From positions 18,108,348 through 18,172,347 of the forward strand of contig CAIIXF020000006.1 in NCBI GenBank assembly GCA_903813345.2: a DNA stretch of 64,000 bases, given 5' to 3'. This document shows positions 24,701 to 60,024 of the stretch, in pieces. Below the pieces are notes generated by a model. That model was not told the DNA's origin and searched no databases. It was given only the letters and a program-made list of their open reading frames with translations. The stretch is from Owenia fusiformis. Taxonomy: Eukaryota; Annelida; Polychaeta; Sabellida; Oweniidae. Position 1 is the first letter of the stretch. Every line of letters starts with the position of its first letter. The translations under genes were made by a program, and so were the position numbers.

Positions 24701-27700
24701 AAATTATATCGTTACCATTCAAAAGGTGACCATTAAATTGACGATGTGTAAAAATTTTCGAATTTTTTTGATGACTGGTTTAAGAGAAACGTATACATGT
24801 TAAAAAAATTCACCATATCGATACCTATCCTTTGGCCAAGTTGTGATAGTGTCACTTACAATTCATTCAGGTTGTCCTCGGGAAAACTTCCATCTTCAAT
24901 AGATATTATTCCATTATTATGTAACCAACTGAAAGACATTCACATTTTCATACGGTGATCTACAAGCTTGAGTAAATGAATCAATAGGGAGTTTAAGCTA
25001 CCATATAAAATTGAAACGCCAACCTATACGTGTGACCAATCGCCCATACAAATGCATTGCTTAAATATTTTCCATTGGCGTTTAGGTTGTGAAAAACATT
25101 ACTAGCTTAAACTCCTTACTATTGTTACAGCGAGCATGTGTTTTATATCTCTAAATATTTAAGAGAAAGAGTTGTAATAACTATGATTTTACTAATCCTT
25201 TTCAATACTAATTTACTCTTTATTATAAAATTAAATACTTTTGAATTCTTTATGGGCTTTGACATAACTTTCCTTGTAAATACGTTTTCACCAGGAGTTG
25301 GAATTATTAACTATATATAACAAAAAAATCTTTCAAAATCAAACGTTTGTACTCACAGAGTTTTTAACGTTGATAGATCAGAAAAGGCGTAACGTTGTAG
25401 AAACGTCAATTTGTTAGACTGTAACCGTAACTCCTCAATAGCAGGCAATCCAGTACTATGACGTATTGCTTCAGGGATGTATTGGATGCGATTGAAAGAT
25501 AAGTCCCTGGATATAAAGAAAATTACAACATAAGCTGCAAACAATAAACAAAGTTGCCCCAAAAAATCGATCAATTAATACCATAAGAATTTAAAAACAA
25601 TTGTAACAGCTGTTTTGGACACCCTGTAGATCCATAACTTACAGAAATTCAAGCCTCAAGTTACAAGCCCAGGCTGTGACATGGATTGTGTCTTCTGTTA
25701 GGAGATTACCAGCTAGATGCAGTCTTGTCAATATAGTCATCTCACAGAAATCATCTTCTTCAATCTCTTCTATCCTGTTGCTACTCAACCACCTAGAACA
25801 TATTAATACAATGCGAGACAGATCAATCAGGTTGATTCTTATATATCAAACTTTCAAAGGGGGGGGGGGGTGTACAGGATGGCCATACAATATGAAGCAA
25901 AATTTCAGAGTTCAAACGGCATATATCTTACCCTGCGTGCAGAGTCTAGTTAAACTACAAGACGAAGCTCTCTTTTAAGAAGTGAAGTCAAACGAATGCA
26001 AAGGGTACATATTATATCTTCATGAAAATGTTAGACTTAGTGGCATTTTATCACAATGATGTACAATATAACATTTAATGCCCTCCGAACCTGCATTCAA
26101 AGCAATCTCTTTAACACTTTATTTATCACGGATATTAACGATTTCAGCATTCAATGTCTCATTCATCATTTGAAGCATTTTTGGAAAAATGAAAATTCTC
26201 TGGAAAAAGGTCATATAAATTTTCAGTGTTTCCACAGTTTTTTCAAATTCAAATGTTTTCTAGAAAGTTAATTTATGCTTAATTAATATAAAATATCCCT
26301 TGCTGGATTTTCCATGAAATTCCAGAACTGAGCCACCCTGATGAATCTTCACATGGGTGAAATGAGCATTGGTGGGGTGAAGCTCACGAATAGTAACTAA
26401 GCTTATATCTTATACTATATCTACAGTGTAGTTCCTATACTGGTTTCATGCAAAGCACTTTTGTGCACTAAATGTAGTTAAGATATATATGAATAAATAA
26501 GATAAAAAATAATAACTTTGTACTAACAGAGTCTGTACATTTGGGGTTGTCTCAAAGGGCACAAATGTCTTCAACCTCGCCTTCCACGTTGCTCGTAGAT
26601 TGATGCTAAAGGCCTCCTGACCATAGTCCGTATGGTTAACGATTTGGTTGTCTTCGGCATGTCTTAAATAATGCAGAAATCCTTCGTTAAACAGAACATA
26701 AAGTTAATATGTACAATCGAACGCCGACTCAAAGAATATTGGCAACTGAACAAAGGGGAAGGCCTATTTAATCATTAAGAAATGGATACTTGAATTGGCT
26801 TCAATTGGCATGATGATTTAAGGTCAGGGTGCATGATGGGAAATTTTCTGCATCCCTCAATTGAGTCACATGTTATTTTTCAAACAAGAATCACTCCTTC
26901 CCCACATTGCCTATATCTTCCAGTTTTGCACAAAGAGTGCACTTATGTGCCTAGAAAAGACTTGTGAGAAGAATGTTTTGATCAAGTGTATAAAAAACAA
27001 GAAAATTCAGTGAAAAAAATCAGAAAATTTTTAGAAATTTTTTTCACCTAATTTTCTCATTTTTCATACATTTTACAAAACAAACCTTCTCACAAGGCTT
27101 TTCTAGGCACATAAGTGTACTCTTTGTGTAAACTTGGAACATGTAGACAATATGGGGAAGGAGTTATTCTTGTTTGAAAAATAACATGTGATTCAATTGA
27201 GGAATGCAGAAAATTTCCCAACATGCACCCTGTCCTTAACCCAGTTCATTGATATCAAACGAATTTTGTTCACCATCTTGGATGCTACTACCTCCAGTTA
27301 GTAGGCCTATCATCCTGTTGTGTGTCAGAGCCATTACTTATTAAATGTGTAACAGTGCCATTACATATTACTTGTATAAAAGTGCCATACGTGTGTAACA
27401 GTGCCATTACTTATTGCTTGTATAACAGTGCCAGTACTTATAACGTGTATAACAGTGCCATTACTTATTACTTGTATAACAGTGTCATTACTAACACCCC
27501 AGTCACATTTGTCGTACGGAGGCCGTGCGTGTATTCACGATTTCTGCGGCGAGCGTAGGAAAACTACGCTCACCTTGCGGCCTCCGTACGGCGTATCCAG
27601 TTTTTTACAGGCCGCAGGGTCGCCGTAGAAATTATAACTCGGAGTTATAATATTGGTTCATTTCCGAGGTCCCCGTAGAAATCAACTGGCTCAACAATAT

Positions 27701-30700: not shown

Positions 30701-33700
30701 GACAGATGGACGGATGGACTGACTGACTTACTGACGGACTGACAGACGCAGGGCTTCACTATATCCCTACTGAACTTAGTTCGTTGGGAAAATAAACTTT
30801 CCAAAAGCCGATTAATGAGTAGATAATCTGTTGTTAACTTCAAAAATATCAAAATCTAATATTTTTGTTGACCCCTGTTAAACCCCTCAATAAGTAAACG
30901 GTAATGTTGACAGGTCCTCAACAGGTGAAAATGTATGTAGTAATATATGTTTTATCATTTAAACATATCAAAACAATTGGCGGATCAACAAAAAACAAGA
31001 TGATGTTAAAAGAAAGTGAACTAAATGGAACCATCATTTTTAATCATTTTGAATGCAAAATATAATCAGACAAACGATCTTATTTTCAATTAAACAGAAA
31101 AATCAATAGGTCATGCTAATAAGTTTCCAAAAAACTAATTCATAAGTAGATAATCCGTTGTAAACTTCAAGAATATCAAAATCTAATATTTTTTATTTTT
31201 TGTGGACCCCTGTCAAACCCCTCAATTATAAGTAAATGGTAATGTTGACAAGTGCTCAACATGTGAAAACATATGTAAAAATATATGTTTTATCATTTAA
31301 AGATATCAAAACAATTGGCGGATCAACAAAAAACAAGGTGATGTTAAAAGAAAGTGTACTTAATGGAACAATTATTTTTAATCATTTTGAATGCAAAATA
31401 TAATCAGACAGACGATCTTATTTTCAATTAAACAGATAAAATCAATATGTTATGTTAATAACCTTTCTAAAAACCGATGCATAAGTAGATAATCGGTTGT
31501 AAACTTCAAAAATATCAAAATCTAATATTTTTTAATTTTTTGTGGACCCCTGTTAAACCCCTCAATAATAAGTAAACGGTAATGTTGACGAGTGCTCAAC
31601 AAGTGAAAACGTGTGCAGGAATATATGTTTTATCATTTAAACTCATCAAATCGATTGCAGGATGAACAGGAGGAAACAGCTTAATTAAGGCTTATCTGAA
31701 AAATTCCTTTATCCCTATATACAACCATCTCTTCTCAAATTGACTTTTGGAGATGCTCGTTATGAAACACCCTGTATGTCATATGTTGAGCTACTGAATG
31801 GGTCGTTTCCAGGAATTGCTAGAACCTACTGGTTTGATTGGTGTTTCAAATTGATGGTTAAAGTATTTGATTGGATACTGTTCCCACTCAGCCAATTAAT
31901 TTCAAAAAATGCTTGCGGTCAATTGTTCCACACACATGTAGGCAAATCTTTATACGGAGATCCAACTGTATACGTTATCATCTACGTAAATATACCGTTT
32001 TGTAAGTTCATTGAACTTATACTGATCATGAAAACATTGAAATAATCAACTTGTTTATGTAATGACTCACTTTAAAGGATCGTGTTTATAATACACTACA
32101 ACTAAAAGGACACGGAAGCAAGCATTTAATTATAATGTGCATAATCTACACGTGCAGATGACAGTGTATTCACAGTCTCTAGTTGATGGAGCTTTTCTAT
32201 AACGGGAATAGTTATGTTCCATTAAGTACAATTTAAAATTGATTTTAGTAAATATAATAGTTCGACACGACCCTTTAAACTATACGTATACGTATAAGTT
32301 GTACTTTCACTTATGTGCGAAATCTCTCTATTATGAAAAAAGTATTATTTATCAACAGAAATTTAAAATTCACCGTGCGGCTGCCGTGGGAAATGTGACT
32401 GCAAAAGTATGAGAGCGCAGAAATTCCACGGCGAGCGTAGAAATGTTACTGGCCGCAGAAATGATAGACCGCAAAGTCGCCGTAGGAAATGTGACTGAGG
32501 TGTAACACCCCTGTCACATTTCCTACGGCGACCTTGCGGTCTATCATTTCTGCGGCCAGTAGCTTTTCTACGCTCGCCGCAGAATTTCTGCGCTCTCATA
32601 CTTTTGCAGTCACATTTCCCACGGCAACCGCACGGTGAATTTTAAATTTATATTGATAAATAATATTTTTTTTTCATTTTATTTACATCAGGACAATTTA
32701 TAAATGTTATTCAAAGTGCTAGGATGTAATATCAAATGAAAAGTGATCGTGAAACATTGACAAATAATGATTCAATCTAGTTGAGCAAGTTGATTTCTAC
32801 GGGGACCTCAGAAATGAACAAATATTATAACTCCGAGTTATAATTTCTACGCCTTCCCTGCGGCCTGTAAAAATCTGCATACGCCGTACGGAGGCCGCAA
32901 GGCGAGCGTAGTTTTTCTACGCTCGCCGCAGAAATTCATCGATTTAATTGTTCTGCGGTCGACTTGCGGCCGCCGTGCGACAAATGTGACTGGGGTGTAA
33001 AATATTTGTTCATTTCTGAGGTCCCCGTAGAAATCGACTGTCTCAACAAGATTGAATCATTATTTGTCAATGTTTCACGATCACTTTTCATTTGATATTA
33101 CATCCTAGCACTATGAATAACATTTATAAATTGTCCAGATGTAAATAAAATGAAAAAAGTATTATTTATCAACAGAAATTTAAAATTCACCGTGCGGCTG
33201 CCGTGGGAAATGTGACTGCAAAAGTATGAGAGCGCAGAAATTCCACGGCGAGCGTAGAAATGTTACTGGCCGCAGAAATGATAGACCGCAAGGTCGCCGT
33301 AGGAAATATGACTGGGGTGTTATCATTTGTATTAGTGCCATTACTTATCACGTGTATAACATTGCCATTACTTATTACTTGTACAACAGTGCCATTACTT
33401 ATAACGTCTATAACAGTGCCATTACTTATTGTAAAACAGTGCCATTACTTATCAAGTATACCATTGCTATTACTTATTACTTGTATAACAGTGTCATTAC
33501 TTATAGTGTGTACCAGTGCCATTACTTATTATGTGTATAATAGTGCCATTGCTTATTACGTGTATAACTGGTGCCATTACTTGTTACATATAACAGCGCC
33601 ATTACTTATTACATGTGTAACATTGGCATTACTTATTACTTGTATAACAGTGCCATTACTTATTTAATGTGTAACAGTGCCATTACTTATGACTTGTATA

Positions 33701-36700
33701 ACAGTGCCATTACCTGTTTTGTGTATAACAGTGCCATCACTTATTACTTGAATAATGTAATATTCCAAGCAGGTTATTTATAGCGAACTTTCACAATACA
33801 TTTATAGTTTACTGTATAATGTATATGGACTTCCAAGTTCTGGTTAAATGGCTAATTCAATTAAAAATTATAATTACGGTTTTAATAACAACTTACACCT
33901 GAGCGAGCGTTGGATAAATGTCCTCTCCCAAAGCCTGGTGGGGATAGTTGGGGAGACTATTATCACTGACCCACCTACAGCATAGAAAATATATTTATTT
34001 TAATGTTTAACATGTATTTTGACGCATTTAACTCATAAATTTATTTAATTTACAATTGTTAGTAATTTGTGATGATAGTTGCATAATAAGACGTAAATGG
34101 CGTAACAGTTTCTTCATAACACACGCGCAGTTCAACAACAAACAGTATGAGATGCGAGTAGAAATGATATTGATTTACTTCATTAAATATTCAAAATTTA
34201 CATGCTACAAAACCACAAAAGTGAAATATCTTTTCTTGTGTTAGGCAGATAATATTTTTTCTTTTACTGGACATATTTTCGTTTGTATAACTATCAGACA
34301 CATAAGGAATATATAAAAATTGATTCACTTAAACTGATAATATTCAAGTCAAAGGGAATTTCCTTATATACCTGCCATGTTAATTAACCCGAATCAGCCA
34401 CCTGGTGATGGAACTGTTAACCATCTACTCACATCTAGGTAATTGTCATTTGTTTAAAACATGATTTTAAGTAACAATACCAGTATATCAAAAATAGAAC
34501 GTTCGAATTTACTCGATATTACTGAAAATAAAAATGTTAACAGGAAATAGTGACTCGTGTGTGTCAAGCCTACTTTATACTTACAGCATGAACAGGTTAC
34601 TGTTGATTCCATTGAACGCATTGAATGCTATAGATGTCATCGGAGTCTTCTGAGAGTGAAGCCGGAGCTCCCGTAACTTTGGCAAATTCACCAGTGAGTT
34701 TGCTGGCAGTGTTTCCAAATTATTGTTGTTCAGATCTCTGCAGTAGAAAAATAATGTCTATTTAGTTTATTTGTATCCCCATTGGTTTTGGAAATAAGCG
34801 TATTTAACAAACCCATGATCATCCCCAAAAAGAGATTACATTCATTTTTAAGATTACTTACAGATAAAGTAGCTCTGGGAGATCATAGAAGACTTTCCAG
34901 GCGAGTGTTTCCAAGCTGTTCTGGTGAAGCTCGCTGTAATAAAATAATAAAAATATGAATTAAAATATGAAATGTTCAGTTCGTTTTCTGAAGAAGTTAT
35001 ACAAAAGGCAATCAAAAAGCAAGAAATGGGACAAAAATGACATTTGACTTTTCAATTGTTTTTCATGAAACTGAACGGTAATTGGGAATCCTGACATGAT
35101 AATGTCGATCGGATATCTACACCGTTTTAATTAAAATGAGGCAATGTCAAAGATGGGGCATTTCATAATTCTACTCACAGCAACTGTAGATTAGGGAGGA
35201 CGTTAAATGCCCCTGCCGCTATAGTCCGTATTAAGTTGTTGCTCAAGTTCCTATAAAAAACACAAGGGAAATGCTTTAAAACGCCGAATATTCTATTACA
35301 GGGTGGGCCAATAGAAATTGGAACATTTTTCTGTTTATTCAATTTTCTCTATTATTGCAGTTCAGACAAAAAATTCAGATAATGGTAAAATGATTATTTG
35401 TGAAAATGTTAAAGATAAAAATATGTATGTATGATTATTTTTGGCTTGTTATGGTCATGATCTTTATTCTGCGCGTGTCATGAATAATTTCCAAATTTTC
35501 TCTGCTTGAGAAATAACTGCTGAGTATACAATATATTTCATACCATACAATATGTACACTTCAAATGGTCTCATTACAATTTCCATCGATCAAAACATAT
35601 ATATCTAGGAGAAGCAAGACTTGTCTCCCTTGACTGTATTTTCAGCAATGATGTCTCAAGCAGAGAAAATGAGGACTTTTTTCATTACGCACGCAGTACA
35701 CAGATCATGATCATGACAAGCCAAAAATAATTATACATACATTTTTTTATCTTTAACATTAATAGAGAAAATTGAATAAATTGAAAAATCTTCCAATTTT
35801 TATTGGCCCACCCTGTACATTCAAGATACATTTCTCTACTACCTGTTTAAGAAAATATTTCCATGTGTTAAGAAATGTGTTTATTGTTAATTTTTATCGA
35901 TTTACCAATCAGAATATTTAACATGCACTTTGTAAGAAGGTGATCCGAGAGTGTTTTACAGAAGAAGCCCTTTATAACCATTGGCTTAACATGCAAAAGG
36001 CAAATGATATGAACTTACAAATGTTGGAACATTGGACTTGTATCCAATGCTATCATATTCCTTTTGGATATCGAAGTTATCTCGTTTCCTTCGACGCCAC
36101 TGCAAAGATAAAAATGCATGAAGTGAGGAATCGAAAATAAATGAGTTGATGTAATGTGTCAATAATTTTAATTCAAATCGCTGTGTGGTATTTTGCAATT
36201 GATAGTGTGCAATTTGAAATGGACTAATAAGAACGATAAAAAGTAGAATGTCAATGCTACAATTTAACAAAATTGGCATGGAATAAATAAGGGTTATGTA
36301 CTGGGAGGTTTTGGATATAGGGTATATCCTGAGTGATATATTTATATCTCCCCGAGGGACCGAAGGGACCAAGGGGAGATATAAATATTTCCCGAGGGAT
36401 AAACCCTATATCCAAAACCGAGCGTACATAACTGGTGTATCTCATACTTCAGTGGGTTTGGGGTAGATATAACCTTTCCACCTTTTTCAAATGACAATAT
36501 TGGCCTATACTGTAAAAGCACAATTTATATTTAACATTTTTGTAATATTTCTTTAGTTCAATACAATGAAATTGTAACATTTAAACTTTTGTAATTGTAA
36601 AACATGAACTGTTCATAAAAAGAAAATAAAAAAAAATTCCCGGGAGCGGGATGGATATATTATATCTGCCCGCATTTGGACTGGAGCGGGACATATATAA

Positions 36701-39700
36701 TATATCCTGCCCGCTCCTCAGATACGATATATATTCCCGGGTGATATCTACCCCAAACCCACTCAAGTATGAGATACATACATATACATCATTCATGCAT
36801 GGAAGTAGAAGTCACAGACAGAAATGACAGACAGAAATGAATACTTAAGGACAGAAATGAATAGGCCTACTCACAGATATACCAGGTCAGTGAGACCACG
36901 CACTGCTTCCTGAGGAAACTGCTTGAGTTTGTTGTTGGCAAAACTCCTGTAAAGAGAACCGAAAATAGTAGTTAAGTTCAATATTAAACTGGGAACGAAA
37001 ACTGAAAGAGGTTTTCAAAGTGTTCATCCTACATACATACATCCTAAAAATTGATTTATTCACCTGAAGAATTTTAGTCCAATATTCTATAAATAAAAAA
37101 TGAAACACTATATTGCATTTTAAATGGAATGCAATAACACCATACCGAAAATAAAGTTCAAAGAGACATACCATCCATAGCCCTGGGAAAAAATACTCAC
37201 GCAAATTTGACACTGGTGCCAGCGAGGAAATCAGAGGGCAGCCAAATGATCTCATTGTTGGTGAGTGAACTGAAATGAAGAAGGTATGACTGAGCTTAGC
37301 CTTGCCCAAGTCGATATTTTTTACTTGATGATAGAAATCAAGATTAGTCATTTCTTATTAAAGTGTCTGGCTCTTTCTGGAGTCCGAGAACCCATGATTA
37401 ACATTGTAATGAGCAATTTGAATGTTCAAGATGACAATTTTATTCTTAAGGTAATACACAGTATAGTATGTGACAATGAGAAACTATTATCTGTATCACA
37501 GAAAGTGTACATAATGCATAAGCAGAGACAACTGCTGTTAAAAATGTCTAATCACTGTACATTACCTACTCTTTATTAATCTTTGTGTGATGCTTTTACT
37601 TTTTTAATTAGTTTGTAAAATAATGTAAATGTAACTTTCATTTTATTAAGAGGTAAATAAATTATACATTCATACAAACATACAAAAGAGACCGACTTGG
37701 GCACTTGTGGCTTGCTTAATTTTTAAACACAGTAAATCATTTATTCTCTCGGATACTATAAAGTATATTTTTATATGAACAAACTGTAAATGTATGCAGG
37801 TTTGAATTTTGTCTCATTGATGTCTACTTAGGTTGTTACTTACATGTGAGTCAATGTCGAAGGCATCATAAAGCGAGTATAATTCCTTGTATCAAAATGG
37901 ATTTTGTTGTGATTAAGATTCCTAAAATGCCAAAAATGATTATTTACAGCATGCAGTAATTGATCAAATTAGAAATTAGAATACAAACGTAAACTTACGA
38001 TAATCATCATTCTAATTATCATTCTAAAAGTATTCAAATGTTGCATATTAAAACAACACAATCACGTGTGGCATATTGTGGGAGAAGTTGGGTAAAAAGT
38101 ATCTAATGTTATGCAAACATACATGGGTTCCTTTCTATGTTTGATCATGGACTTTTTCTAATTGAAAGCCCATGGTTTGATCATAGCTTGGAATTATAGA
38201 AACATTTGGTTGGGCTTATTCTTGTTGTATTTTGTAATCTTTAGCCTTCCCGTTTGATACCTTAATGTGGATGATGTAGAATTTGCTTGTAACTTACAGT
38301 TTTGTGAGTATAGTATCAGATAGGTCTGGAATAATCTCAAGCAGGGTGTCTTGTATCAACCTGAGAACGTAGGAAAACAATAACATTGTGTAATAAATGT
38401 ATGAACTATAATCCAAAATCCAAGTAAAATAAGTTTTTAAGATCCTCATACAATAAAAGGCTGACGTCTAGTTTAATATTTATCAAATGCTGTAAACTTT
38501 TAAACTGGAAATGTAAATTGCTATTAATAATACCAATACGCTAGTAGTACCATAGCAGAGGGATACTTACATGGTCTCAAGCTGCACCATACCTTGAAAT
38601 ACATTCTCACTGGTCTTGGCAAAATTTGGACAGTCTACGATTGTACTGGAATACCATGTGAACACAAATTAAAACAATCGGCAATGCAATGGGTTCATCA
38701 TATATTGTACTGGAAGACCATGTGAACACAAATTAAAACAATCGGCAATGCAATGGGTTCATCATCATAAAGTGTACTGGAAGACCATGTGAACACAAAT
38801 TAAAGCAATCGGCAATGCAATGGGTTCATCATCATAAAGTGTACTGGAAGACCATGTGAACACAAATTAAAACAATCGGCAATGCAATGGGTTCATCATC
38901 ATATATTGCACTGGAAGACCATGTGAACACAAACTAAAGCAATCGGCAATGATGGGCTCATCATCATATATTGTACTGGAAGATCATGTGAACACAAATT
39001 AAAACAATCGGCAATGCAATGGGTTGATCATCATATATTGTACTGGAAGACCATGTGAATACAAATTAAAACAATCGGCATTGCAATGGGTTCATCATCA
39101 TATATTGTACTGGAAGATCATGTGAACACAAATTAAAACAATCGGCAATGCAATGGGTTGATCATCATATATTGTACTGGAAGACCATGTGAATACAAAT
39201 TAAAACAATCGGCATTGCAATGGGTTCATCATCATATATTGTACTGGAAGACCATGTGAACACAAATTAAAATAATCGGCAATGCAATGGATTCATCATC
39301 ATATATTGTACTGGAAGATCATGTGAACACAAATTAAAACAATCGGCAATGCAATGGGTTCATCATCATAAAGTGTACTGGAAGACCACGTGAACACAAA
39401 TTAAAACAATCGGCAATGCAATGGGTTCATCATCATAAAGTGTACTGGAAGACCACGTGAACACAAATTAAAACAATCGGCAATGCAATGGGTTCATCAT
39501 CATAAAGTGTACTGGAAGATCATGTGAACACAAATTAAAACAATCGGCAATGCAATGGGTTCATCATCATAAAGTGTACTGGAAGATCATGTGAACACAA
39601 ATTAAAACAATCGGCAATGCAATGGGTTCATCATCATAAAGTGTACTGGAAGACCACGTGAACACAAATTAAAACAATCGGTAATGCAATAGGTTCATCA

Positions 39701-42700
39701 TCATAAAGTGTACTGGAAGACCACGTGAACAAATTAAAACAATCGGCAATGCAATGGGTTCATCATATATTGTACTGGAAGACCATGTGAACACAAATTA
39801 AAACAATCGGCAATGCAATGGGTTCATCATCATAAAGTGTACTGGAAGATCACGTGAACACAAATTAAAACAATCGGCAATGCAATGGGTTCATCATCAT
39901 AAAGTGTACTGGAAGATCACGTGAACACAAATTAAAACAATCGGCAATGCAGTGGGTTCATCATCATAAAGTGTACTGGAAGACCACGTGAACACAAATT
40001 AAAACAATCGGCAATGCAATGGGTTCATCATCATAAAGTGTACTGGAAGACCACGTGAACACAAATTAAAACAATCGGCAATGCAATGGATTCATCATCA
40101 TATATTGTACTGGAAGACCATGTGAACACAAATTAAAACAATCGGCATTGCAATGGGTTCATCATCATAAAGTGTACTGGAAGACCACGTGAACACAAAT
40201 TAAAACAATCGGCAATGCAATGGGTTCATCATCATAAAGTGTACTGGAAGACCATGTGAACACAAATTAAATTAATCGGCAATGCAATGGGTTCATCATA
40301 TATTGTACTGGAAGACCATGTGAACACAAATTAAAACAATCGGCAATGCAATGGGTTCATCATCATAAAGTGTACTGGAAGACCACGTGAACACAAATTA
40401 AAACAATCGGCAATGCAATGGGTTCATCATCATAAAGTGTACTGGAAGACCATGTGAACACAAATTAAAACAATCGGCAATGCAATGGGTTCATCATATA
40501 TTGTACTGGAAGACCATGTGAACACAAATTAAAACAATCGGCATTGCAATTGGTTCATCATCATAAAGTGTACTGGAAGACCACGTGAACACAAATTAAA
40601 ACAATCGGCAATGCAATGGGTTCATCATCATAAAGTGTACTGGAAGACCACGTGAACACAAATTAAAACAATCGGCAATGCAATGGGTTCATCATCATAA
40701 AGTGTACTGGAAGACCATGTGAACACAAATTAAATTAATCGGCAATGCAATGGGTTCATCATATATTGTACTGGAAGACCATGTGAACACAAATTAAAAC
40801 AATCGGCATTGCAATTGGTTCATCATCATAAAGTGTACTGGAAGACCATGTGAACACAAATTAAATTAATCGGCAATGCAATGGGTTCATCATATATTGT
40901 ACTGGAAGACCATGTGAACACAAATTAAAACAATCGGCATTGCAATTGGTTCATCATCATAAAGTGTACTGGAAGACCATGTGAACACAAATTAAAACAA
41001 TCGGCAATGCAATGGGTTCATCATCATAAAGTGTACTGGAAGACCATGTGAATACAAATTAAAACAATCGGCATTGCAATGGGTTCATCATCATAAAGTG
41101 TACTGGAAGACCATGTGAACACAAATTAAATTAATCGGCAATGCAATGGGTTCATCATATATTGTACTGGAAGACCATGTGAACACAAATTAAAACAATC
41201 GGCAATGCAATGGGTTCATCATATATTGTACTGGAAGACCATGTGAACACAAATTAAAACAATCGGCAATGCAATGGATTCATCATCATAAAGTGTACTG
41301 GAAGATCACATGAACACAAATTAAAACAATCGGCAATGCAATGGGTTCATCATCATAAAGTGTACTGGAAGACCACGTGAACACAAATTAAAACAATCGG
41401 CAATGCAATGGATTCATCATCATATATTGTACTGGAAGATCATGTGAACACAAATTAAAACAATCGGCATTGCAATGGATTCATCATCATAAAGTGTACT
41501 GGAAGACCATGTGAACACAAATTAAAACAATCGACAATGCAATGGGTTCATCATATATTGTACTGGAAGACCATGTGAACACAAATTGAAACAATCGGCA
41601 ATGCAATGGGTTCATCATCATAAAGTGTACTGGAAGACCATGTGAACACAAATTAAAACAATCGACAATGCAATGGGTTCATCATATATTGTACTGGAAG
41701 ACCATGTGAACACAAATTGAAACAATCGGCAATGCAATGGGTTCATCATCATATATTGTACTGGAAGGCCATGTGAACACAAACTAAAGCAATCGGCAAT
41801 GATGGGCTCATCATCATATATTGTACTGGAAGACCATGTGAACACAAATTAAAACAATCGGCAATGCAATGGGTTCATCATCATATATTGTACTGGAAGA
41901 CCATGTGAACACAAACTAAAGCAATCGGCAATGATGGGCTCATCATCATATATTGTACTGGAAGACCATGTGAACACAAATTAAAACAATCGCCAATGCA
42001 ATGGATTCATCATCATAAAGTGTACTGGAAGACCATGTGAACACAAATTAAAACAATCGCCAATGCAATGGATTCATCATCATAAAGTGTACTGGAAGAC
42101 CATGTGAACACAAATTAAAACAATCGGCAATGCAATGGGTTGATCATCATATATTGTACTGGAAGACCATGTGAACACAAATTAAAACAATCGGCAATGC
42201 AATGGGTTCATCATCATAAAGTGTACTGGAAGACCATGTGAACACAAATTAAAACAATCGGCAATGCAATGGGTTGATCATCATATATTGTACTGGAAGA
42301 CCACGTGAACACAAATTAAAACAATCGGCAATGCAATGGGTTGATCATCATATATTGTACTGGAAGATCATGTGAACACAAATTAAAACAATCGGCAATG
42401 CAATGGGTTGATCATCATATATTGTACTGGAAGACAATGTGAACACAAATTAAAACAATCGGCAATGCAATGGGTTCATCATATATTGTACTGGAAGACC
42501 ATGTGAACACAAATTAAAACAATCGGCAATACAATGGGTTGATCATCATATATTGTACTGGAAGACAATTGTGAACACAAATTAAAACAATCGGCAATGC
42601 AATGGGTTCATCATCATATATTGTACTGGAAGACCATGTGAACACAAATTAAAACAATCGGCAATGCAATGGGTTCATCATATATTGTACTGGAAGACCA

Positions 42701-45700
42701 TGTGAACACAAATTAAAACAATCGGCAATACAATGGATTCATCATCATAAAGTGTACTGGAAGATCACGTGAACACAAATTAAAACAATCGGCAATGCAA
42801 TGGGTTCATCATCATAAAGTGTACTGGAAGACCACGTGAACACAAATTAAAACAATCGGCAATGCAATGGGTTGATCATCATATATTGTACTGGAAGACC
42901 ATGTGAACACAAATTAAAACAATCGGCAATGCAATGGGTTCATCATATATTGTACTGGAAGACCATGTGAACACAAATTAAAACAATCGGCAATGCAATG
43001 GGTTGATCATCATATATTGTACTGGAAGACCATGTGAACACAAATTAAAACAATCGGCAATGCAATGGGTTCATCATATATTGTACTGGAAGACCATGTG
43101 AACACAAATTAAAACAATCGGCAATACAATGGATTCATCATCATAAAGTGTACTGGAAGATCACGTGAACACAAATTAAAACAATCGGCAATGCAATGGG
43201 TTCATCATATATTGTACTGGAAGACCATGTGAACACAAATTAAAACAATCGGCAATGCAATGGGTTCATCATATATTGTACTGGAAGACCATGTGAACAC
43301 AAATTAAAACAATCGGCAATGCAATGGGTTCATCATCATAAAGTGTACTGGAAGACCACGTGAACACAAATTAAAACAATCGGCAATGCAATGGGTTCAT
43401 CATCATAAAGTGTACTGGAAGACCACGTGAACACAAATTAAAACAATCGGCAATGCAATGGGTTCATCATCATAAAGTGTACTGGAAGACCACGTGAACA
43501 CAAATTAAGTTCATCATCATTAAGTGTACTGGAAGACCATGTGAACACAAATTAAAACAATCGGCAATGCAATGGGTTCATCATCATCATATATTTGTCA
43601 CGAGGACAATGCATTTCAAATAACAACAGAAACTCATGTTCAATTGTTACTGTTGTATACTTGAATATATAAATAAATATAAATAAATAAATAGAAATTA
43701 AAAAAGAAACCGAGCGACCAAAGTTAATAAGTGAATAAGGAATGATTAAAACACCTACATGTCTGTGATAAGAGTGGGATCTGGAAATGTATTGTTGGTG
43801 ATGTTTGTAAATGTCTGTCCTACCAGTGACCTGGAATACCAAAACGAAAAGTTATTAACATATAAATAATGAATGGGCATATCCTGTCCCATGGCACATG
43901 TTCTCCGGGCTACATCCATTGATATGCTTCTGCACAGATAATAATTCTTAGTAAAGAATATTACATGTGCTTTAAATTGAATGGTAATAATAATATACGT
44001 TATTGGTCATCAGGAGATCATAATACATACAATAGAACTGCTAGCTCAGGAAGACTACACCAGCATCTCCCTAACAAATAAACACACCCTCCCATAGAGG
44101 ACCAATGAACAGTTCTTTTTAGCTCATACGGTGTGGGGTATTGTAACAACCCACGATCTGTCCGTGTGTCTGTCCGACTGACAATTGTCGGTTTATCATA
44201 CAATTGTCACATTACACTTTTCTCCTGTATCATTAGTCTCGTCACACACACACCCTATGCAGACAGAGCCTGTGGGAAATATTGGGTGCGGAGCAAATGA
44301 GCGGAGGGTGCGGAGCTAACGGTCATTTTTGAATTTAAATTTGGGATATTTCTGAAACTAAGCCGTTTTGGGACTTCAAATATACCAAGATATGTGTATT
44401 TGACACCAAATATCAATACAATTGTGAAAATAGTAGCGCAATTCATTCTATAGCGACGCAGTGTGCCTTAAACCTTTCCCAGACCTATATATTTTGAAAT
44501 TATCCTTTTAATACTGAGTCCCCAGCATTCATAAAAAATGGTGTTCAAGGTACACTATCTATACAAATTATTTTTGCATCTTGGAAGCCAGGCAGTATCT
44601 GTGTGATTTTATAAAAATTCGGAAATGTTTTTCAGATATGAGCCCCCTCTAAATATTGGGTGCGGAGGGGCTCCATAAACGTACCTCCGCACCCAATATT
44701 TAGAGGGGGCTCATATCTGAAGAACATTTCCGAATTTTTATAAAATCACACAGATACTGCCTGGCTTCAAAGATGCAAAAATAATTTGCATGGGTAGTGT
44801 ATCTTGAACACCATTTTTTATGAATGCTGGGGACGCAGTATTAAAAGGATAGTCTCAAAATATTTAGGTCTGGGAAATGTTTAAGGCATACTGCGTCGCT
44901 ATAAAATGAATTGCACTACTATTTTCACAATTTTATTGATATTTGGTGTCAAATACACATATCTTGGTATATTTGGAGTCCCAAAACGGCTTAGTTTCAG
45001 AAATATCCCAATTTTAAATTCAAAAATGACCGTTAGCTCCGCACCCTCCGCTCATTTGCGCCACACACAATATTTTCCACAGGCTCTGTCCGCATAGGGT
45101 GACACACAACCTTGACATACTGAACCAATTAATTTTATTATAACACCACATACTTACACGACTGGTCCTAAACAGTTCTCTACTGTTCCAGCGTCGATGT
45201 CACATTCACAACCTAGACATGGGTCACCTGGCCTGGGGTAACGGTAGGGCGAATCAACAGTATCCTCTTGAGTGAACATTCCATTTCGAGTCTCATCTAC
45301 AATTGCAAACAGTCTTTGTTGTTAATAACGATATTATCACACTTATTTTAATACATAGAATCACAACTTTACAGGACTATCATGTTTCCCTGTTGTACAA
45401 ATTATCGGGACAAACTGACACATGTTACATTTCCACAAAAAATGGTTTCTGCGATTTTTAGAATCAATATTACTTGTTATTCATGTACACTTTAATTAGT
45501 TAGATTTTTTTTATAAATATTCAATAGAGAATGCGTTCACATTCCTTCGAAATCAAAAACCATCGAAATGTGAATACCTTCTGTACGAACGCTTTTAAAC
45601 GGACCCAATGGCGTTCGGATTAGACAGGTTTATTGTTCTCATTTAATTAGCTATTCTTATATTATATTGAGCAAAATATTTGGATTCTACTTTAGACAAT

Positions 45701-47580
45701 TTTCTACAAATTTAAAACAAAAATCTCGAGGCATTAGGCATTATTCTCGAAATGTATGAATAAACTTTTTTGTAGCAGTGGCGTTTTGCGTATCCCAAAA
45801 CGGTGGTGATCCTTTTGTAGTGGTTTTCTATAAAACTTATTTTGTAATTTTTTCTCTCAAAAACAATGGAATACATATTGCATAACTAATAATTAATGCT
45901 ATTATAAATATCATATGAAACCCTTTCCAGTTTAATCCAACAGTTTCAATTGGCCAAATACAAAGTGAAGCATTGCAGAATACTAGCATTATGGGTATTG
46001 GAGATTGGTAGATGCAGGTTTCTATGGCAACCCGTACTGCCATGGATACTGTGTCAGCCTAACCTTGGATGATGGGAGACCTTGAAAACCAATGTTACGA
46101 ATTGCCTTTATCCAACGTGTAATACTTTAATGAGTTGGGTGATTCTTGGAAAAGTATTTTTCCAATTTCCGGGTCAGATGCCTTTCGAATAATCAATAGA
46201 CAGACTCCACTGAGAGCTTTTTAGGAAACTCTACTGCCTACATGCATTAATATTCAGATGCAGATCGGAACGAATAACTGACTGGTAAATTGCCTACATT
46301 AAGAGGGTCCCTTTCAGAAAAGCTAACATCCTGTTTTATTAGACTCTTAATAGAGTCTATTGTTTTTGCCTGAATTTTCGGAAAAGTCAGTAAAAATTAA
46401 ATTTGGCAAGAATAGAGCATTATACATTTTCTTTCTCATTTTCTCATCAATATCAGATGTCAAAATTACTTTTTATTTAAAATCTGGAATCTGGAGTCTT
46501 GAATTTAATTTGTTCAATTTCACCAATCTAGTTTTCTATGCTATCAGATGAAAAATTAATTGAAATATCAGGTTTCGCTTCTGATTATATTCTGACATTT
46601 TTTCCATTCGAAGGGTAAAGTTACAATGTTACATATAATGTAGGGTTACATTGCAAGAGAAGCTAGCTGACGAACACCATATGATAAGGTTTAAGCTATA
46701 CGTTGTCTATTTAGACAGAATATAGCAATGCGCTGGCTAGAGAGGTCCGGAGACTTTGGGTTATCTTTAAGTTTGTTATTTATAACATCTGAAGTCCTCC
46801 CCCCATTGTCGCCTGTACATCGGTTGTACAATTTGACCTTCTCTTTTTGCATTGATCTTAAGCAATTCTTCCATCTAATATCACTGCAAACTCACTTGCA
46901 ATTTTGCTGAATTTTATTTGTTAATACTTATCGAAAATTGCAATTACAAACTGCGATGGTCTGTTAGTAAGAGTTAAATAGCAAGGTAAGAGAGAATTCA
47001 AACCTGTGGTATAAGATGGATATTTTTATTTTTGAGGTTTTAGGTATGCGATGTGTTGTTTCCTTTTAAAACGTTCTCACATATTCTTGAATATGAAGAC
47101 ATCTATCGTAAAGACAATAGAGATAGAAATGTCCTTTCTAGATCAGTATGCTATGCAAAGTTTACACATTAGGGCGTATTTCAAACGTTCATCAATTTTG
47201 TCATTCGTTATCCAAAAATGTTTTGTGCAAAAATTGACATGAACTCAACACGCTCTAAATATATTTAGACAATTGTTTTGACCTTTATACAAATTTTCTT
47301 TATATAATTGTAATTCAAACATTAAATAAAGTGGGAGTTTCCAAGCATGTAAATGACAGTGAAAAGCGCACCTCTGTGGAAATGGCATACATAGATATAT
47401 AAAATGGCACACATGACCTAACGTGATGAACATACCCTCTGTATATTCAACTGTCATGAAAGTACTGAAGCGGTCATTGTAAAACTCATGTGCGGGCCAG
47501 AAATCCTGGCCATGGGTAGGGGAGACACACAGAATCACATACACCACTCCCAGTAAGATCAGTCGTAGGAGAAACCTCAT
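223..47580 (-). CDS. Giant multidomain LRR / fibro-slime / cadherin / discoidin / EGF protein gene (3'-incomplete)
   Basis: Forty-five coding exons can be joined with GT-AG introns and matching phases from the ATG at 47580 to the donor after 223. Their lengths sum to 6375 nt, exactly 2125 codons with no stop, which is strong internal support. Domain order by approximate residue: signal peptide 1-25, LRR N-cap 49-94, LRRs 95-983, LRR C-cap 984-1051, FN3-like 1052-1167, fibro-slime 1168-1415, cadherin region 1416-1705, F5/8C 1706-1866, Cys-rich GCC2/GCC3-like 1867-2012, thrombospondin-type EGF 2013-2125. The protein continues beyond the left edge, so I cannot tell whether it ends in a membrane anchor. 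Many N-x-S/T sequons and paired cysteines fit an extracellular protein. LRR, discoidin and EGF modules usually bind proteins or glycans, so a role in adhesion or recognition is inferred. I do not recognise an orthologue. Exon coordinates are given in the domain entries below. Confidence 0.85.
846..956. mobile_element. GCCTTGCCCAA hairpin MITE, copy 1
   Basis: GGCCTTGCCCAACTCAGTCT pairs imperfectly with the right end AATACTGAATTAGGCAAGCC; the centre TTATCTTGATTTC/ATAAGATCAAAAA also pairs. The same TIR occurs at 2878, 37302 and 47857. Confidence 0.65.
1235..3627 (-). CDS. Gene 1 coding exons 41-43: Cys-rich ephrin-receptor-like (GCC2/GCC3) modules
   Basis: Exons 3461-3627, 2657-2816, 1235-1346. 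Each encodes repeated CxxCxxGxY-type cysteine patterns: CQRCVAGYYCEGDG, CEPCPEGH, CETGYACNAGLKYACPNGTY and CLMCEPGTYQDLPLQDHC with NCPTGFYSS. The last block matches the ephrin-receptor-like (GCC2/GCC3) signature best. The middle exon is looser and could be a TNFR- or VSP-like cysteine module. Twenty-five cysteines in about 146 residues indicate disulphide-stabilised extracellular stalk modules. Frame is kept across all three junctions (phases 0, 1, 2). Confidence 0.78.
1757..2566. mobile_element. TIR element whose termini are tandem 16-mers
   Basis: The left end is about six copies of CAACTCGTACCCAAGA (1757-1853). The right end (2518-2566) is about three copies of the same 16-mer inverted (TCTTGGGTACGAGTTG). 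The terminal ~48 bp are therefore inverted repeats. The AT-rich interior has no useful frame. It lies between exons 42 and 43. Confidence 0.7.
2878..2962. mobile_element. GCCTTGCCCAA hairpin MITE, copy 2
   Basis: Left AGCCTTGCCCCAAGTCGGT; right ACCAACTTAGGACAAGT; interior TTTTTACTTATCTGATCTTG pairs with AAAATAAGTAAAAG. Confidence 0.6.
3662..3744. repeat. 83-bp dispersed repeat, copy 1
   Basis: ACCCTGCGTGCAGAGTCTAG through ATGCAAAGGGT. It is nearly identical to 25930-26008, with short inverted ends (ACCCT/AGGGT). Confidence 0.75.
3841..5584 (-). CDS. Gene 1 coding exons 37-40: F5/8C discoidin domain
   Basis: Exons 5471-5584, 5210-5307, 4346-4459, 3841-3997. About 160 residues run from the opening Cys (CRDTIGIANAIIYDELMDAS) through GRGRLNMTF, GGWVADVSDTAQWIQADL, IQLQGREDENEWVTQVRILY and NPRAWFGQIALRFEVVGC. 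These are the diagnostic blocks of the coagulation factor 5/8 C domain: the W-x-Q-x-DL strand, the Q-G-R turn and the closing L/I-R-x-E-x-x-G-C. The length is normal for the family. Such domains bind lipids, glycans or proteins at the cell surface; which applies here is unknown. A foldback repeat starts about 15 nt past the exon 38 donor. Confidence 0.88.
4598..4845. repeat. G-rich dispersed repeat fragment
   Basis: A run of ten G's followed by GTGCGATTTTTTGGGTTTG, and at the right GGTGGTGCGATTTCATCCC and CTACGCCCATGCCTG, indicate a degraded member of the same TGCGAT-type family. It lies in intron 38. Confidence 0.4.
5080..5194. repeat. Foldback repeat next to the exon 38 donor
   Basis: CAGTTATGTCGGTATCATTG at the left pairs with CAATGATAGGGACATAACTG at the right, and GAATATATGCC with GGAATATATTC. 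The centre CCCTCGCAAGCTCGGG also pairs. The transcript strand would form this hairpin about 15 nt into the intron. Confidence 0.75.
5759..8422 (-). CDS. Gene 1 coding exons 32-36: cadherin-type segment
   Basis: Exons 8290-8422, 7851-7973, 7296-7483, 6411-6580, 5759-6015. Exon 34 ends and exon 35 begins within a cadherin repeat: YVLVLKVTDQG, then ILLLDVNDNCPE, which is the calcium-linker motif DxNDNxP. Exon 35 has the DxDxGxNxxI motif (DIDSGVNQDI), and exon 36 ends the repeat with AAIDKGDPPRGKTATVTITL. So one full repeat and the end of a preceding one are clear. Exons 32-33 precede it and are only weakly cadherin-like, with a Pro-rich linker. Exon 36 continues into a Tyr-rich linker that I do not recognise, leading to the discoidin domain. 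Calcium-dependent rigidity or adhesion is the family role. Confidence 0.78.
6624..6715. repeat. CATAGCCAGGGG dispersed repeat fragment
   Basis: GGCATAGCCAGGGGATGGGG followed by GTGATGGGTGCGATCACAC is shared with 12668-12720 and 20101-20150 (CATAGCCAGGGGGTGGG). The last bases are A-rich. It lies in intron 34. Confidence 0.55.
6971..7060. mobile_element. TTTAAGCCC foldback MITE, copy 1
   Basis: TTTAAGCCCTGCAGCC pairs with the right end GACTCGATG... in reverse (GTCTTGGGCTTAAA), and the right flank TTCTTTTCACACA is shared in inverse orientation with the copy at 52960. Confidence 0.55.
8681..11505 (-). CDS. Gene 1 coding exons 28-31: fibro-slime domain
   Basis: Exons 11229-11505, 10014-10103, 9556-9734, 8681-8877. 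Reading them together gives the fibro-slime family landmarks in order: LTDFSRGHPDF, a TFSDWFRDVSPSNHVY block, FYPLDGRGF, HNFGFTSS, GGDEMWLYINKTLVLQL and finally FHFDMFHVERYW with KIFIETVG. The family, named from Dictyostelium and Fibrobacter surface proteins, is a PA14-related beta domain in carbohydrate-facing extracellular proteins. That part is family knowledge; sugar binding here is inference. The usual GDDD metal-site stretch reads GGDE, so the acidic positions are reduced. The second exon is only 90 nt and abuts a 43-bp tandem array. Confidence 0.75.
10107..10400. repeat. 43-bp minisatellite abutting the exon 29 acceptor (7 copies, an eighth beyond an inserted MITE)
   Basis: The motif gcaatgtgac recurs at 10116, 10159, 10201, 10244, 10287, 10329 and 10372, a spacing of 42-43 bp. 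A further copy lies at 10833-10891, after an insertion. The array starts a few bases upstream of the AG of exon 29, whose pyrimidine tract is the end of the first unit. Confidence 0.93.
10401..10832. mobile_element. MITE (family A) inserted inside the 43-bp minisatellite
   Basis: The ends are imperfect inverted repeats: CCCAGATGCGAGTAG on the left, and the complement of CTACTCGCACCTAG on the right. The interrupted unit resumes with ATT repeated on both sides (10398-10400 and 10833-10835), a likely 3-bp target duplication. Related copies lie at 20760-21385 and 34146-34441. Confidence 0.75.
11650..12123 (-). CDS. Gene 1 coding exons 26-27: FN3-like beta-sandwich segment
   Basis: Exons 11988-12123 and 11650-11861. 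About 116 residues follow the LRR C-cap. The first exon carries a Trp (LTVSWEQPAD) and two cysteines. The second carries the late-strand pattern of fibronectin type III domains: YSCTVQTDDAGYTSAKSAPS, with Tyr, Cys and the S-x-P-S end. Two-exon coding with a central phase-2 intron is common for FN3. The match rests on pattern only, and another immunoglobulin-like fold is possible. The acceptor of exon 26 is copied eight times in an adjacent tandem array. Confidence 0.6.
12113..12590. repeat. Tandem array duplicating the exon 26 splice acceptor (57/61-bp unit, 8 copies)
   Basis: The motif cagctagagtatg starts at 12121, 12182, 12243, 12304, 12361, 12422, 12479 and 12540, giving 61- or 57-bp spacing (the short form lacks 4 bases). 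On the minus strand each unit holds ATATTAAC (branch-point-like), TTTCATACTCTAG (tract plus AG), and then the first 14 bases of exon 26 (CTGGATATAATGTC). The copy at 12113-12123 is the true exon edge. Confidence 0.93.
12661..14125. repeat. Decayed repeat tract with alternating ~140-bp units
   Basis: CCCAGAAAGCACCAAATAGCA-type blocks recur near 12813, 13099, 13417, 13630 and 13871. They alternate with CCCAGACATCATCAAATAGC-type blocks near 12943, 13232 and 13500, with G- or C-runs between them (ccccccctctgg). The tract starts with a GGGTGCGATGGGTGCGACC block shared with 6640. It fills most of the intron between exons 25 and 26. Confidence 0.7.
14321..45296 (-). CDS. Gene 1 coding exons 2-25: LRR ectodomain with N- and C-terminal caps
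   Basis: Exons: 45158-45296, 43759-43830, 38571-38645, 38298-38360, 37844-37921, 37201-37269, 36875-36946, 36019-36099, 35179-35250, 34862-34933, 34585-34737, 33897-33974, 26528-26662, 25643-25792, 25357-25506, 24860-24928, 20531-20671, 19894-20037, 18733-18876, 16825-17100, 15635-15847, 15386-15529, 14946-15161, 14321-14523. Exon 2 holds the N-cap cysteine cluster CLGCECDIDAGTVENC (C-x2-C-x-C-x9-C). Most following exons encode one, two or more repeats of the LxLxxNxI type, for example LNLNHNKI, LNLSNNLI, LDLNNNNL, LDLSFNRI, LDLSNNKL and LILNNNQI. Exon 25 holds the C-cap (NPLGCSCNN plus two later cysteines). All introns between exons 2 and 25 interrupt codons after the second base, so LRR exons can be added or lost without frame change. 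I count roughly 35 repeats. This is an extracellular-type LRR solenoid; the ligand is unknown. Confidence 0.85.
16021..16580. mobile_element. 560-bp hAT-like MITE with perfect 8-bp target duplication
   Basis: The element is bounded by CCCGGGGGTTTACTGTGTA and the complement of TATACAGTGAACCCCCCGGG, and flanked on both sides by ACTATCAG (16013-16020 and 16581-16588). The interior consists largely of diverged CCATACCAAATG-type short repeats. It lies in the intron between exons 21 and 22. Confidence 0.88.
17299..18479. mobile_element. CAGGGTGGGCC-TIR element with TA target duplication (1181 bp)
   Basis: Left terminus CAGGGTGGGCCAAAAAGGTA is repeated inverted at the right (TACCTTTTTTGGCTCACCCTG), and TA flanks both ends, as in Tc1/mariner-type elements. 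It contains AAAATGGCCGCC repeats, a (GGAC) microsatellite near 17920-17955 and a TCCGAACTTCGTTCGATGGG block shared with 63.8 kb. No transposase frame is visible. Confidence 0.78.
20101..20250. repeat. CATAGCCAGGGG dispersed repeat fragment
   Basis: Begins GCGCATAGCCAGGGGGTGGG with a CCCCCCACCCCAGCTGGCC partner, then A/T-rich sequence. Related to 6624-6715 and 12661. Confidence 0.5.
20760..21385. mobile_element. MITE family A, second copy (inverted), carrying a nested hAT-like insertion
   Basis: The sequence is the reverse complement of the 10401-10832 element: shared blocks include AACATGGCAGGGTATTACAA and CCCGACCTAGAAGTCACA. It is interrupted at 20868-21112. The right end carries CTCGCATCTGAGTAG; the left TIR is degraded. 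Confidence 0.7.
20868..21112. mobile_element. hAT-like nonautonomous element nested in MITE family A
   Basis: Termini CACTGGCGGAT and ATCCGCCCCTG are inverted repeats of the CAGGGGCGGAT type. The host element reads cggggagattcc where intact. Here gggag flanks both sides, a 5-6 base duplication still recognisable. The interior is rich in AAGGCC and GGGCCC blocks. Confidence 0.65.
21600..24200. mobile_element. CpG-rich cluster of related TIR elements in intron 17
   Basis: The segments 22030-22400 and 23600-23965 are diverged copies of each other (both contain TCAACTGTGTACGAACGGAC). Termini of the type ACACCAAACTAGTTCTC occur at 23602, and inverted at 23568-23585 and 24179-24194, so 23602-24194 may be one unit, with a neighbour ending at 23585. 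Between them, ACCGACC/GGTCGGT blocks occur at 22463-22552 and 23323-23367. This stretch has more CG dinucleotides than its surroundings. No transposase was recognised. Confidence 0.5.
24248..24833. mobile_element. TIR element (GGTATCGATATGGTGAA family)
   Basis: Left AAAGGATGGGTATCGATATG and right CATATCGATACCTATCCTTT are nearly perfect inverted repeats of about 25 bp. The interior has no long frame. A diverged relative with GATAGGTATCGATATGGCAA lies at 48793 inside another transposon. It sits just left of exon 17. Confidence 0.72.
25930..26008. repeat. 83-bp dispersed repeat, copy 2
   Basis: The same block as 3662-3744, except for a 4-base deletion (ACTACTGAAGACG versus ACTACAAGACG). It lies in intron 14 of gene 1. 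Confidence 0.75.
26822..27235. mobile_element. TTAA-flanked foldback MITE (414 bp)
   Basis: The arms start GGTCAGGGTGCATGATGGG and end CCCAACATGCACCCTGTCC, with TTAA on both outer sides. Paired internal blocks (TTTTCTGCAT, ACATGTTATTTTTCAAACAA, GTGCCTAGAAAAG) extend almost to the centre. TTAA targets are typical of piggyBac- or Kolobok-type elements; no transposase is present. Confidence 0.82.
27325..27492. repeat. 27-bp minisatellite, left part
   Basis: About six copies of CAGTGCCATTACTTATTACT with GTATAA, matching the array at 33322-33760. The two parts appear to be one array split by the insertion at 27494-33320. Confidence 0.88.
29200..30285. repeat. 1.1-kb foldback (arms ~500 bp)
   Basis: The left and right arms mirror each other around about 29750. 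Paired blocks include GATCTCTTAAAAGTATGGCT, CAAAATATGTTAGGTCATCT, GGTCTACACGACCTGTA and AATTTGGGATGGAGGGGGG. Arms differ by scattered substitutions, so the inverted duplication is old. Confidence 0.85.
30795..31670. repeat. Tandem repeat of ~330 bp, 2.6 copies
   Basis: Copies start near 30795, 31121 and 31458, with the recurring GTAGATAATC.GTTG, GGACCCCTGT.AAACCCCTC and CAATTGGCGGATCAACA blocks. The last copy is cut short near 31670. Confidence 0.85.
31752..31998 (+). pseudogene. Exon-like open frame captured in a transposon; weak TRP-channel resemblance
   Basis: An open frame of about 82 residues is bounded by a plausible acceptor (ending TTTTGGAG) and a good donor (GTAAGT after 31998). It encodes hydrophobic and aromatic blocks: SYVELLNGSFPGIARTYWFD, KVFDWILFPLSQLI, then CGQLF and YVIIYVNIPF. 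The LFP-containing stretch recalls the pre-S1/S1 region of TRPC-like channels, but the match is weak and from memory of the family pattern only. It lies on the opposite strand to gene 1, inside a 4.5-kb mobile element, so a captured host exon is the simplest reading. It could also be part of an element-encoded protein or chance. Confidence 0.3.
33322..33765. repeat. 27-bp minisatellite, right part
   Basis: About sixteen copies of the same CAGTGCCATTACTTATTA / GTGTATAA unit with small variants. It ends about 130 bp from the donor of exon 13. Confidence 0.9.
34146..34441. mobile_element. MITE family A, third copy
   Basis: Left end GATGCGAGTAGAAATGAT and right end CTACTCACATCTAGGT are inverted. 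Internal blocks (GTGAAATATCTTTTCTTGTG and CCGAATCAGCCACCTGGTG) match the other two copies. It lies in intron 12. Confidence 0.7.
35299..35815. mobile_element. CAGGGTGGGCC-TIR foldback MITE with TA target duplication (517 bp)
   Basis: The ends CAGGGTGGGCCAATAGAAAT and ATTTTTATTGGCCCACCCTG are inverted, and TA lies outside both. The interior is also near-palindromic: GATTATTTTTGGCTTGT on the left pairs with ACAAGCCAAAAATAAT on the right, and TTTTCTCTGCTTGAG pairs with CTCAAGCAGAGAAAA. The whole element could fold into one hairpin. Confidence 0.8.
36294..36778. mobile_element. Two adjacent palindromic MITE-like units
   Basis: 36294-36432 is a hairpin (GTTTTGGATATAGGG pairing with CCCTATATCCAAAAC). 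36436-36778 has 35-bp inverted ends (TGTATCTCATACTTCAGTGG; the right end is the inverse with GAGTATGAGATACA changes). It contains an inner hairpin of GGAGCGGG/CCCGCTCC near 36638-36716. Confidence 0.7.
37302..37703. mobile_element. GCCTTGCCCAA MITE, copy 3 (longer)
   Basis: Left AGCCTTGCCCAAGTCGATAT and right GAGACCGACTTGGGCA are inverted. The ~400-bp interior contains an uninterrupted but unrecognised plus-strand frame ending at 37579. It lies in intron 6. Confidence 0.6.
38643..43590. repeat. ~4.95-kb minisatellite filling intron 3 of gene 1 (64-67 bp unit, ~75 copies)
   Basis: The unit (64 or 67 bp) begins TACTGGAAGACCATGTGAAC and ends GGGTTCATCATCATAAAGTG or the shorter CATCATATATTG form. 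Copies differ by a few substitutions such as accatg/accacg/atcatg and aaaaca/aaatta, and blocks of variants recur in series, indicating unequal exchange or gene-conversion growth. The array begins exactly at the 3' splice site of exon 4: unit 1 contains the working acceptor, and every unit carries the same CTTCCAG acceptor on the minus strand. Intron 3 is 5113 bp and almost entirely array. A shortened unit (43508-43515) lies near the far end. Confidence 0.95.
44251..45101. mobile_element. 850-bp foldback element in intron 2 (arms ~400 bp)
   Basis: CACCCTATGCAGACAGAGCC at the left pairs with GGCTCTGTCCGCATAGGGTG at the right. The arms mirror almost fully to a short centre near 44675, where GGTGCGGAGG faces CCTCCGCACC. 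The flanks are both ACACACA-like, so the target duplication cannot be fixed. The arms are >90% alike by eye. Confidence 0.85.
47436..47580 (-). CDS. Gene 1 coding exon 1: signal peptide and N-terminal leader
   Basis: The exon starts at the ATG at 47580. It encodes MRFLLRLILLGVVYVIL, then a small-residue stretch (SPTHGQ) that fits signal peptidase cleavage, then an acidic/aromatic linker ending EYTEG. The donor GTATGT follows codon phase 1 and joins an acceptor at 45297 to restore frame. A clear acceptor (TTCTAG) lies 58 bases upstream of the ATG at 47639, preceded by a pyrimidine-rich run, so the first intron is in the 5' UTR. Confidence 0.85.
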
Positions 47581-60010: not shown

Positions 60011-60024
60011 CTTTCTGAAATATT
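60011..60024 (-). promoter_or_regulatory. Splice acceptor immediately upstream of the DHDH start codon
   Basis: The minus strand reads ATATTTCAG then AAAG before the ATG at 60010. A good pyrimidine/AG acceptor four bases from the start codon suggests a 5' UTR exon further upstream, beyond the repeats at 60.7-64 kb, or a trans-spliced leader. No matching donor was identified. Confidence 0.45.

Follow-up and report, generated by a model that had tools for sequence, protein, structure and literature searches.

An acceptor minisatellite of 75 tandem copies in intron 3 of a modelled LRR gene from the annelid Owenia fusiformis

Among the tandem repeats known to overlap splice sites, the closest to the array described here are the 'mirage' minisatellites of amphioxus, reported from Adh3 and from the globins BflGb6 and BflGb9, which are tandem duplications of an intron-exon boundary (PMC3087553). 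According to the available text of that paper, the BflGb6 array repeats the 3' end of the intron together with the start of the exon, its units measuring 150-160 bp and numbering 6 in one of two haplotypes and 3 in the other. Many, not all, mirage copies keep their splice signals, and splicing seems, on the RT-PCR and Adh3 data as reported there, to proceed normally despite the mirages (PMC3087553).

Three further systems share parts of this arrangement, as far as excerpts of the reports describe them. In human ABCA7, a VNTR in intron 18 has a 25-bp unit starting with a GT donor; the array begins inside the splice site, the exon-adjacent copy is the canonical one, and alleles reach kilobases (PMC5954066). 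Retention of a single unit was found at 2 ± 1%, unchanged with array length, and skipping of the next exon rose with length (PMC5954066). Internal tandem repeats at human exon-intron boundaries, with units averaging 30 bp in four copies, change splicing and can form novel introns (PMC2812944). In UBC, dual-specific splice sites form a tandem array whose AGGT cores are used as donor or acceptor (PMC10809524).

The locus considered here lies in a window of 64,000 nt, the whole stretch of DNA that was analysed (GenBank assembly GCA_903813345.2, contig CAIIXF020000006.1, positions 18,108,348 to 18,172,347). Judged by its sequence, the array in this window is the same structure as an amphioxus mirage, an extreme example of a rare class of repeat, and it is unusual in its copy number and its annelid host. 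As in the mirages (in the available text), the tandem units run across an exon-intron boundary, here 6 nt of the modelled exon 4 and the end of the intron, and the authentic boundary is the terminal unit with the rest intronic, a position assigned here by reading frame, which is open for 1 of 75 copies. Unlike the described BflGb6 array, that of Owenia has 75 copies of 64 or 67 nt that fill the intron, more than ten times the copy number of the globin case with a shorter unit. The mirage hosts in the accessible part of PMC3087553 are cephalochordates, whereas the present host is an annelid; among the papers listed, no title or abstract start reports such an array in an annelid.

The array also resembles the ABCA7 VNTR, as excerpted, in beginning inside a splice site with the exon-adjacent copy as the canonical one (here the likely one). 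It differs in lying on the acceptor side and in being known from sequence alone, whereas the ABCA7 repeat is on the donor side and has measured splicing effects (PMC5954066). With the human internal tandem repeats, on the available description, it shares the placing of minisatellites at boundaries (PMC2812944), and with UBC a tandem array of repeated splice sites; unlike the described UBC sites, the Owenia copies read AG/TACA (the slash marks the splice junction) and are of acceptor type only (PMC10809524).

The gene and the array in intron 3

A minus-strand gene with a signal peptide and LRRs was modelled with 13 exons from 47580 to 33897. The exons were placed by eye, with splice flanks and reading frame as guides, and the model makes no claim to the 3' end of the gene. 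The relevant features are:

47436-47580, minus strand: exon 1 (model); by eye, its start resembles a signal peptide
45158-45296, minus strand: exon 2 (model), a cysteine-containing segment ahead of the LRRs
43759-43830, minus strand: exon 3 (model), 72 nt; acceptor end TGGTATTCCAG, the same as in array unit 1
38646-43758, minus strand: intron 3, 5,113 nt, of which about 230 nt would remain if the 74 extra units were taken out
38640-43594, minus strand: tandem array carrying the acceptor 75 times, most units being 64 or 67 nt long; distal edge (about 43594) set by eye
38646-38647, minus strand: AG of unit 1, likely the working acceptor, in the context CACATGGTATTCCAG/TACAATCG
38571-38645, minus strand: exon 4 (model) of 75 nt with phase 2 at both ends; donor GACCAT/gtaagtat; open frame and splice flanks
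33897-38360, minus strand: exons 5-13 (model), each divisible by 3 in length, exon 12 with 153 nt and the others with 63-81 nt

The joined 13-exon frame is open over 389 aa. The whole model matches LRR_8 with an E-value of 4.6e-25, and its PDB matches are LRR proteins, the best being the acid labile subunit of the IGF-binding complex and LGR4. The lengths of exons 3-13, which all follow the pattern given above for exons 5-13, agree with about one LRR per exon. A search for a close paralogue lacking the array revealed none, the 11 matches being seven of the gene's own exons and four distant sequences (27-31% identity). The other introns of the gene measure 124-2,139 nt, and the array makes up about 97% of intron 3.

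Several other features of the window were recorded. Intron 2 contains, at 44255-45097, near-identical 70-aa frames on opposite strands, which points to inverted copies of one sequence, as in a foldback-like element. A 27-nt minisatellite occurs at 33334-33755 and at 27326-27492 with flanks that look similar by eye, and may be borne by a mobile element. At 17351-17955 and 63004-63797, a 147-nt repeat is followed by a AAATGGCCGCC repeat and a CGGA microsatellite, in the same order both times. Exons of a gene upstream of the LRR gene, which we take to be dihydrodiol dehydrogenase-like, lie at 55606-60169 on the minus strand. As to the host, matches to Eryth_link_C that exceed the cut-off at three places and a PDB match to hemoglobin linker 1 (E 0.0021) point to an annelid; to our knowledge, the Eryth_link_C family is annelid-specific. 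COX1, mollusc haemocyanin and the GFP family yielded no match, in the last two cases in searches lacking a positive control.

Tandem Repeats Finder places the array at 38640-43508 (period 67, 73.5 copies, score 8224), with an additional segment at 43462-43555. A direct scan of the transcript strand with a 15-nt acceptor word, allowing at most 4 mismatches, detected 75 acceptor copies, whose first exon-like bases run from 43528 down to 38645; an array of such length is no chance match. The 74 spacings between copies are 67 nt (53), 64 nt (15) and 65 nt (3), and once each 68, 62 and 47 nt. The 64- and 67-nt units consist of six exon-like bases and 58 or 61 intron bases, so that a unit contains the first 6 nt of exon 4 and the last ~60 nt of intron 3. 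After the AG, the six exon-like bases are TACAAT (37 copies), TACACT (37) or TGCAAT (1).

These counts bear out the claim of about 75 tandem acceptors in intron 3 made in the earlier note, whose interpretation is supported in part. Both the AG and the longer TTCCAG are kept in 75/75 copies. Of the acceptor context that it describes, the exact ACATGGTCTTCCAG is present in 43/75 copies, with the exon-proximal copy itself reading ACATGGTATTCCAG, and the upstream TTGTTTTAATTTGTG is found in 59/75. Its expectation that a change in copy number would alter intron 3 and leave exon 4 unchanged agrees with the position of the array.

The units are also simple in the signals they offer. Internal AGs are absent from 71 of 74 units, in which the terminal AG is the sole one, and a branch-point-like TTTAAT, TTCAAT or TTTAGT lies upstream of the AG in 74/75 copies; in most units, the last A of a branch-point-like TTTTAAT stands about 24 nt before the terminal AG.

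Long tandem arrays are hard to assemble, and the array might have been inflated or misplaced in the assembly. Such an artefact is highly improbable, given that the window is without N, no array copy was seen on another contig, the 74 units compared (distal edge row u75 left out) comprise 37 distinct sequences with 30 distinct variant bases, and the longest ungapped exact self-match is 203 nt. The exact self-matches within the array, up to that length, lie at distances such as 131, 396, 2973 and 3970 nt, and fit block exchange along the array, an observation from one assembly that bears on the length instability among alleles that marks mirages.

Identity and strength of the exon 4 acceptor

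The copy used by exon 4 can be proposed from the reading frame. Only the exon-proximal copy (1/75) continues the open frame from exon 3; with all 74 upstream copies, a stop is encountered. The AT at the end of exon 3, joined to the start of exon 4, gives the codons I-T-I-V-D-C, an LRR-like pattern by eye. The peptide of exons 3-7 matches LRR_8 over residues 28-77 (E 0.00069, below the curated cut-off), with exon 4 occupying about residues 25-48, and that of exons 3-5 matches LRR_5 over residues 5-58 (0.0073, below the curated cut-off), together with one unrelated weak match. Because its frame is the sole open one, the phase-2 exon pattern of the LRRs is continued and the unit carries six exon bases, the exon 4 acceptor is likely the exon-proximal copy, with 38645 as its first exonic base. 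This agrees with what the earlier note proposed for the terminal unit, whose acceptor joins phase-2 exons; the LRR_8 match of the exon 3-7 peptide, although weak, takes in most of exon 4.

The weakness of this acceptor and of the LRR match near exon 4 could also mean that exon 4 is not an exon, or that it uses another acceptor. Of the nine AGs from unit 2 to the exon 4 donor, the frame is preserved only by those giving first exonic bases 38645 (a 75-nt exon) and 38609 (39 nt, score -3.86), and 38645 scores higher and yields an LRR-like segment, which makes this reading hard to credit. AG 38581, inside exon 4, scores 0.61, above the working copy, and would leave an 11-nt, out-of-frame exon.

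Acceptors were scored with a model built from 13 sites chosen by eye, 11 from the LRR gene, that of exon 4 being excluded, and 2 from a neighbouring gene; the model is small and serves for ranking only. In leave-one-out scoring, the 13 sites themselves range from -4.58 to 7.51. The working copy has a score of -2.01 and the decoys have -2.38 to 0.43 (median -1.46), with 73 of 74 decoys at or above the working copy, and among the other intronic AGs, 81/323 reach the score of the working copy. By these scores, the array acceptors are weak, and sequence gives the terminal copy no advantage. Since 65/323 of the other intronic AGs score at least as high as the median decoy, the decoys are not far above background. 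Because the used acceptor is weak in the 13-site model, exon 4 may be partly skipped.

Selection of the terminal copy

The donor side is clearer. The exon 4 donor scores 7.9 (in-sample), where the 13 modelled donors span 2.4-9.0, and none of the 377 GTs in the array reaches the weakest modelled donor (best -2.5 vs 2.4). AG/GT is found in 0/75 copies, all of which read AG/TACA or AG/TGCA. Recursive splicing, whose intermediates the earlier note proposed to look for, was rejected as a candidate on this ground, as no copy has GT after its AG. Given an array with neither donor nor AG/GT, recognition across exon 4 from its donor, rather than recursive splicing, is the likely selector of the terminal copy. 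The same note saw exon 4 itself or its donor as the necessary source of the selecting signal; this is a fair inference from an array lacking donor-like GTs and a used copy no stronger than its decoys, and the necessity goes beyond what these results prove.

In the mechanism proposed, upstream acceptors would be ignored for want of a donor within exon distance behind them, whereas the terminal copy stands 75 nt before a good donor, and recognition across the 75-nt exon would favour the nearest branch point and AG. As most units have a branch-point-like TTTTAAT and a single terminal AG, the choice of branch point would fix the AG. Some misuse is expected: with units 2-4, exon 4 would grow to 139, 206 and 273 nt and contain premature stops, and such messages would probably be degraded. 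Skipping of exon 4 would be in frame, at the cost of about one LRR.

Hairpins that might hide the decoys in the RNA were considered and rejected; none of the sequences folded, which were two single units, the terminal unit joined to exon 4 and a pair of adjoining units, is more stable than its shuffles (z 0.69, 1.06, 1.48 and 1.05).

The array might instead act as a length-dependent regulator, compatible with the preferred explanation, in which the many decoys take up 3' splice-site factors, leading either to in-frame skipping of exon 4 or to loss of the message through use of neighbouring units, with a stronger effect the longer the allele. The 75-nt, phase 2-2 exon would allow such skipping without loss of frame, the used copy scores no higher than 73/74 decoys, and in the available text on ABCA7, VNTR length goes with next-exon skipping and lower expression (PMC5954066). 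However, the same text has the use of neighbouring units not varying with VNTR size, and no sign of selection keeping the decoys was found, 41/67 unit columns being without substitutions. Such a regulatory role is thus unlikely. The six acceptor columns are all substitution-free (P 0.046; column shuffling, post hoc, 74/75 rows, distal edge row u75 left out), which was not taken as evidence that selection keeps the decoy AGs. A more specific form of the idea, in which longer or shorter arrays change the frequency with which decoys outcompete the weak terminal acceptor and hence the rate of in-frame exon 4 skipping, would make the array a tunable splicing element and a heritable, perhaps somatic, switch of LRR number; it is put forward as a distinctly improbable speculation.

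Origin of the array

The explanation preferred here, to which a probability of about 0.8 is assigned as a whole, is a minisatellite that probably developed from a genuine 3' splice site, with splicing still using the exon-proximal copy, as frame, donors and phase suggest for what is a model rather than a cDNA. The array would have arisen in place and then spread as blocks of units slipped or were exchanged unequally. In the 498-Mb assembly, all 75 matches to the unit fall within the array, a missing match being no proof of absence. A 24-nt pattern allowing at most 3 mismatches hits 77 places in the assembly, 74 in the array and 3 elsewhere (3 mismatches each), and the reversed control none. 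Because the assembly yielded the unit at no other place, in a search that can miss copies, growth in place appears most likely.

Tandem arrays are frequent in the window, and the 27-nt repeat occurs at two places, so some arrays are dispersed; a foreign minisatellite or mobile-element array could therefore have landed beside exon 4 and supplied the acceptor by chance. Against this, the unit is known only from intron 3 of the LRR gene, six exon bases in the LRR frame belong to it, and the copies hold one register with the exon boundary. A foreign origin is considered very unlikely.

The intron ends before exons 3 and 4 (43831-43894 and 38646-38709) share an 11-nt suffix, TGGTATTCCAG (column-permuted P 0.017), and align over most of the unit, with the best local score of the 66 pairs in the gene (38, next 32) and 0/1000 shuffles reaching that score. 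Without the last 11 nt, 43/1000 shuffles reach the score of these intron ends, and for exons 3 and 4 themselves, 137/1000. Common ancestry of the two intron ends is suggestive only.

The locus amounts to a natural competition experiment, with 75 nearly identical acceptors in one intron and a single donor behind them, differing chiefly in their distance from the exon. Junction reads on the array would measure how acceptor choice declines away from the exon, and a comparison of length variants would test whether the decoys matter. The array may extend mirage arrays beyond the lancelets, and it hints at intron growth that starts from the splice site itself.
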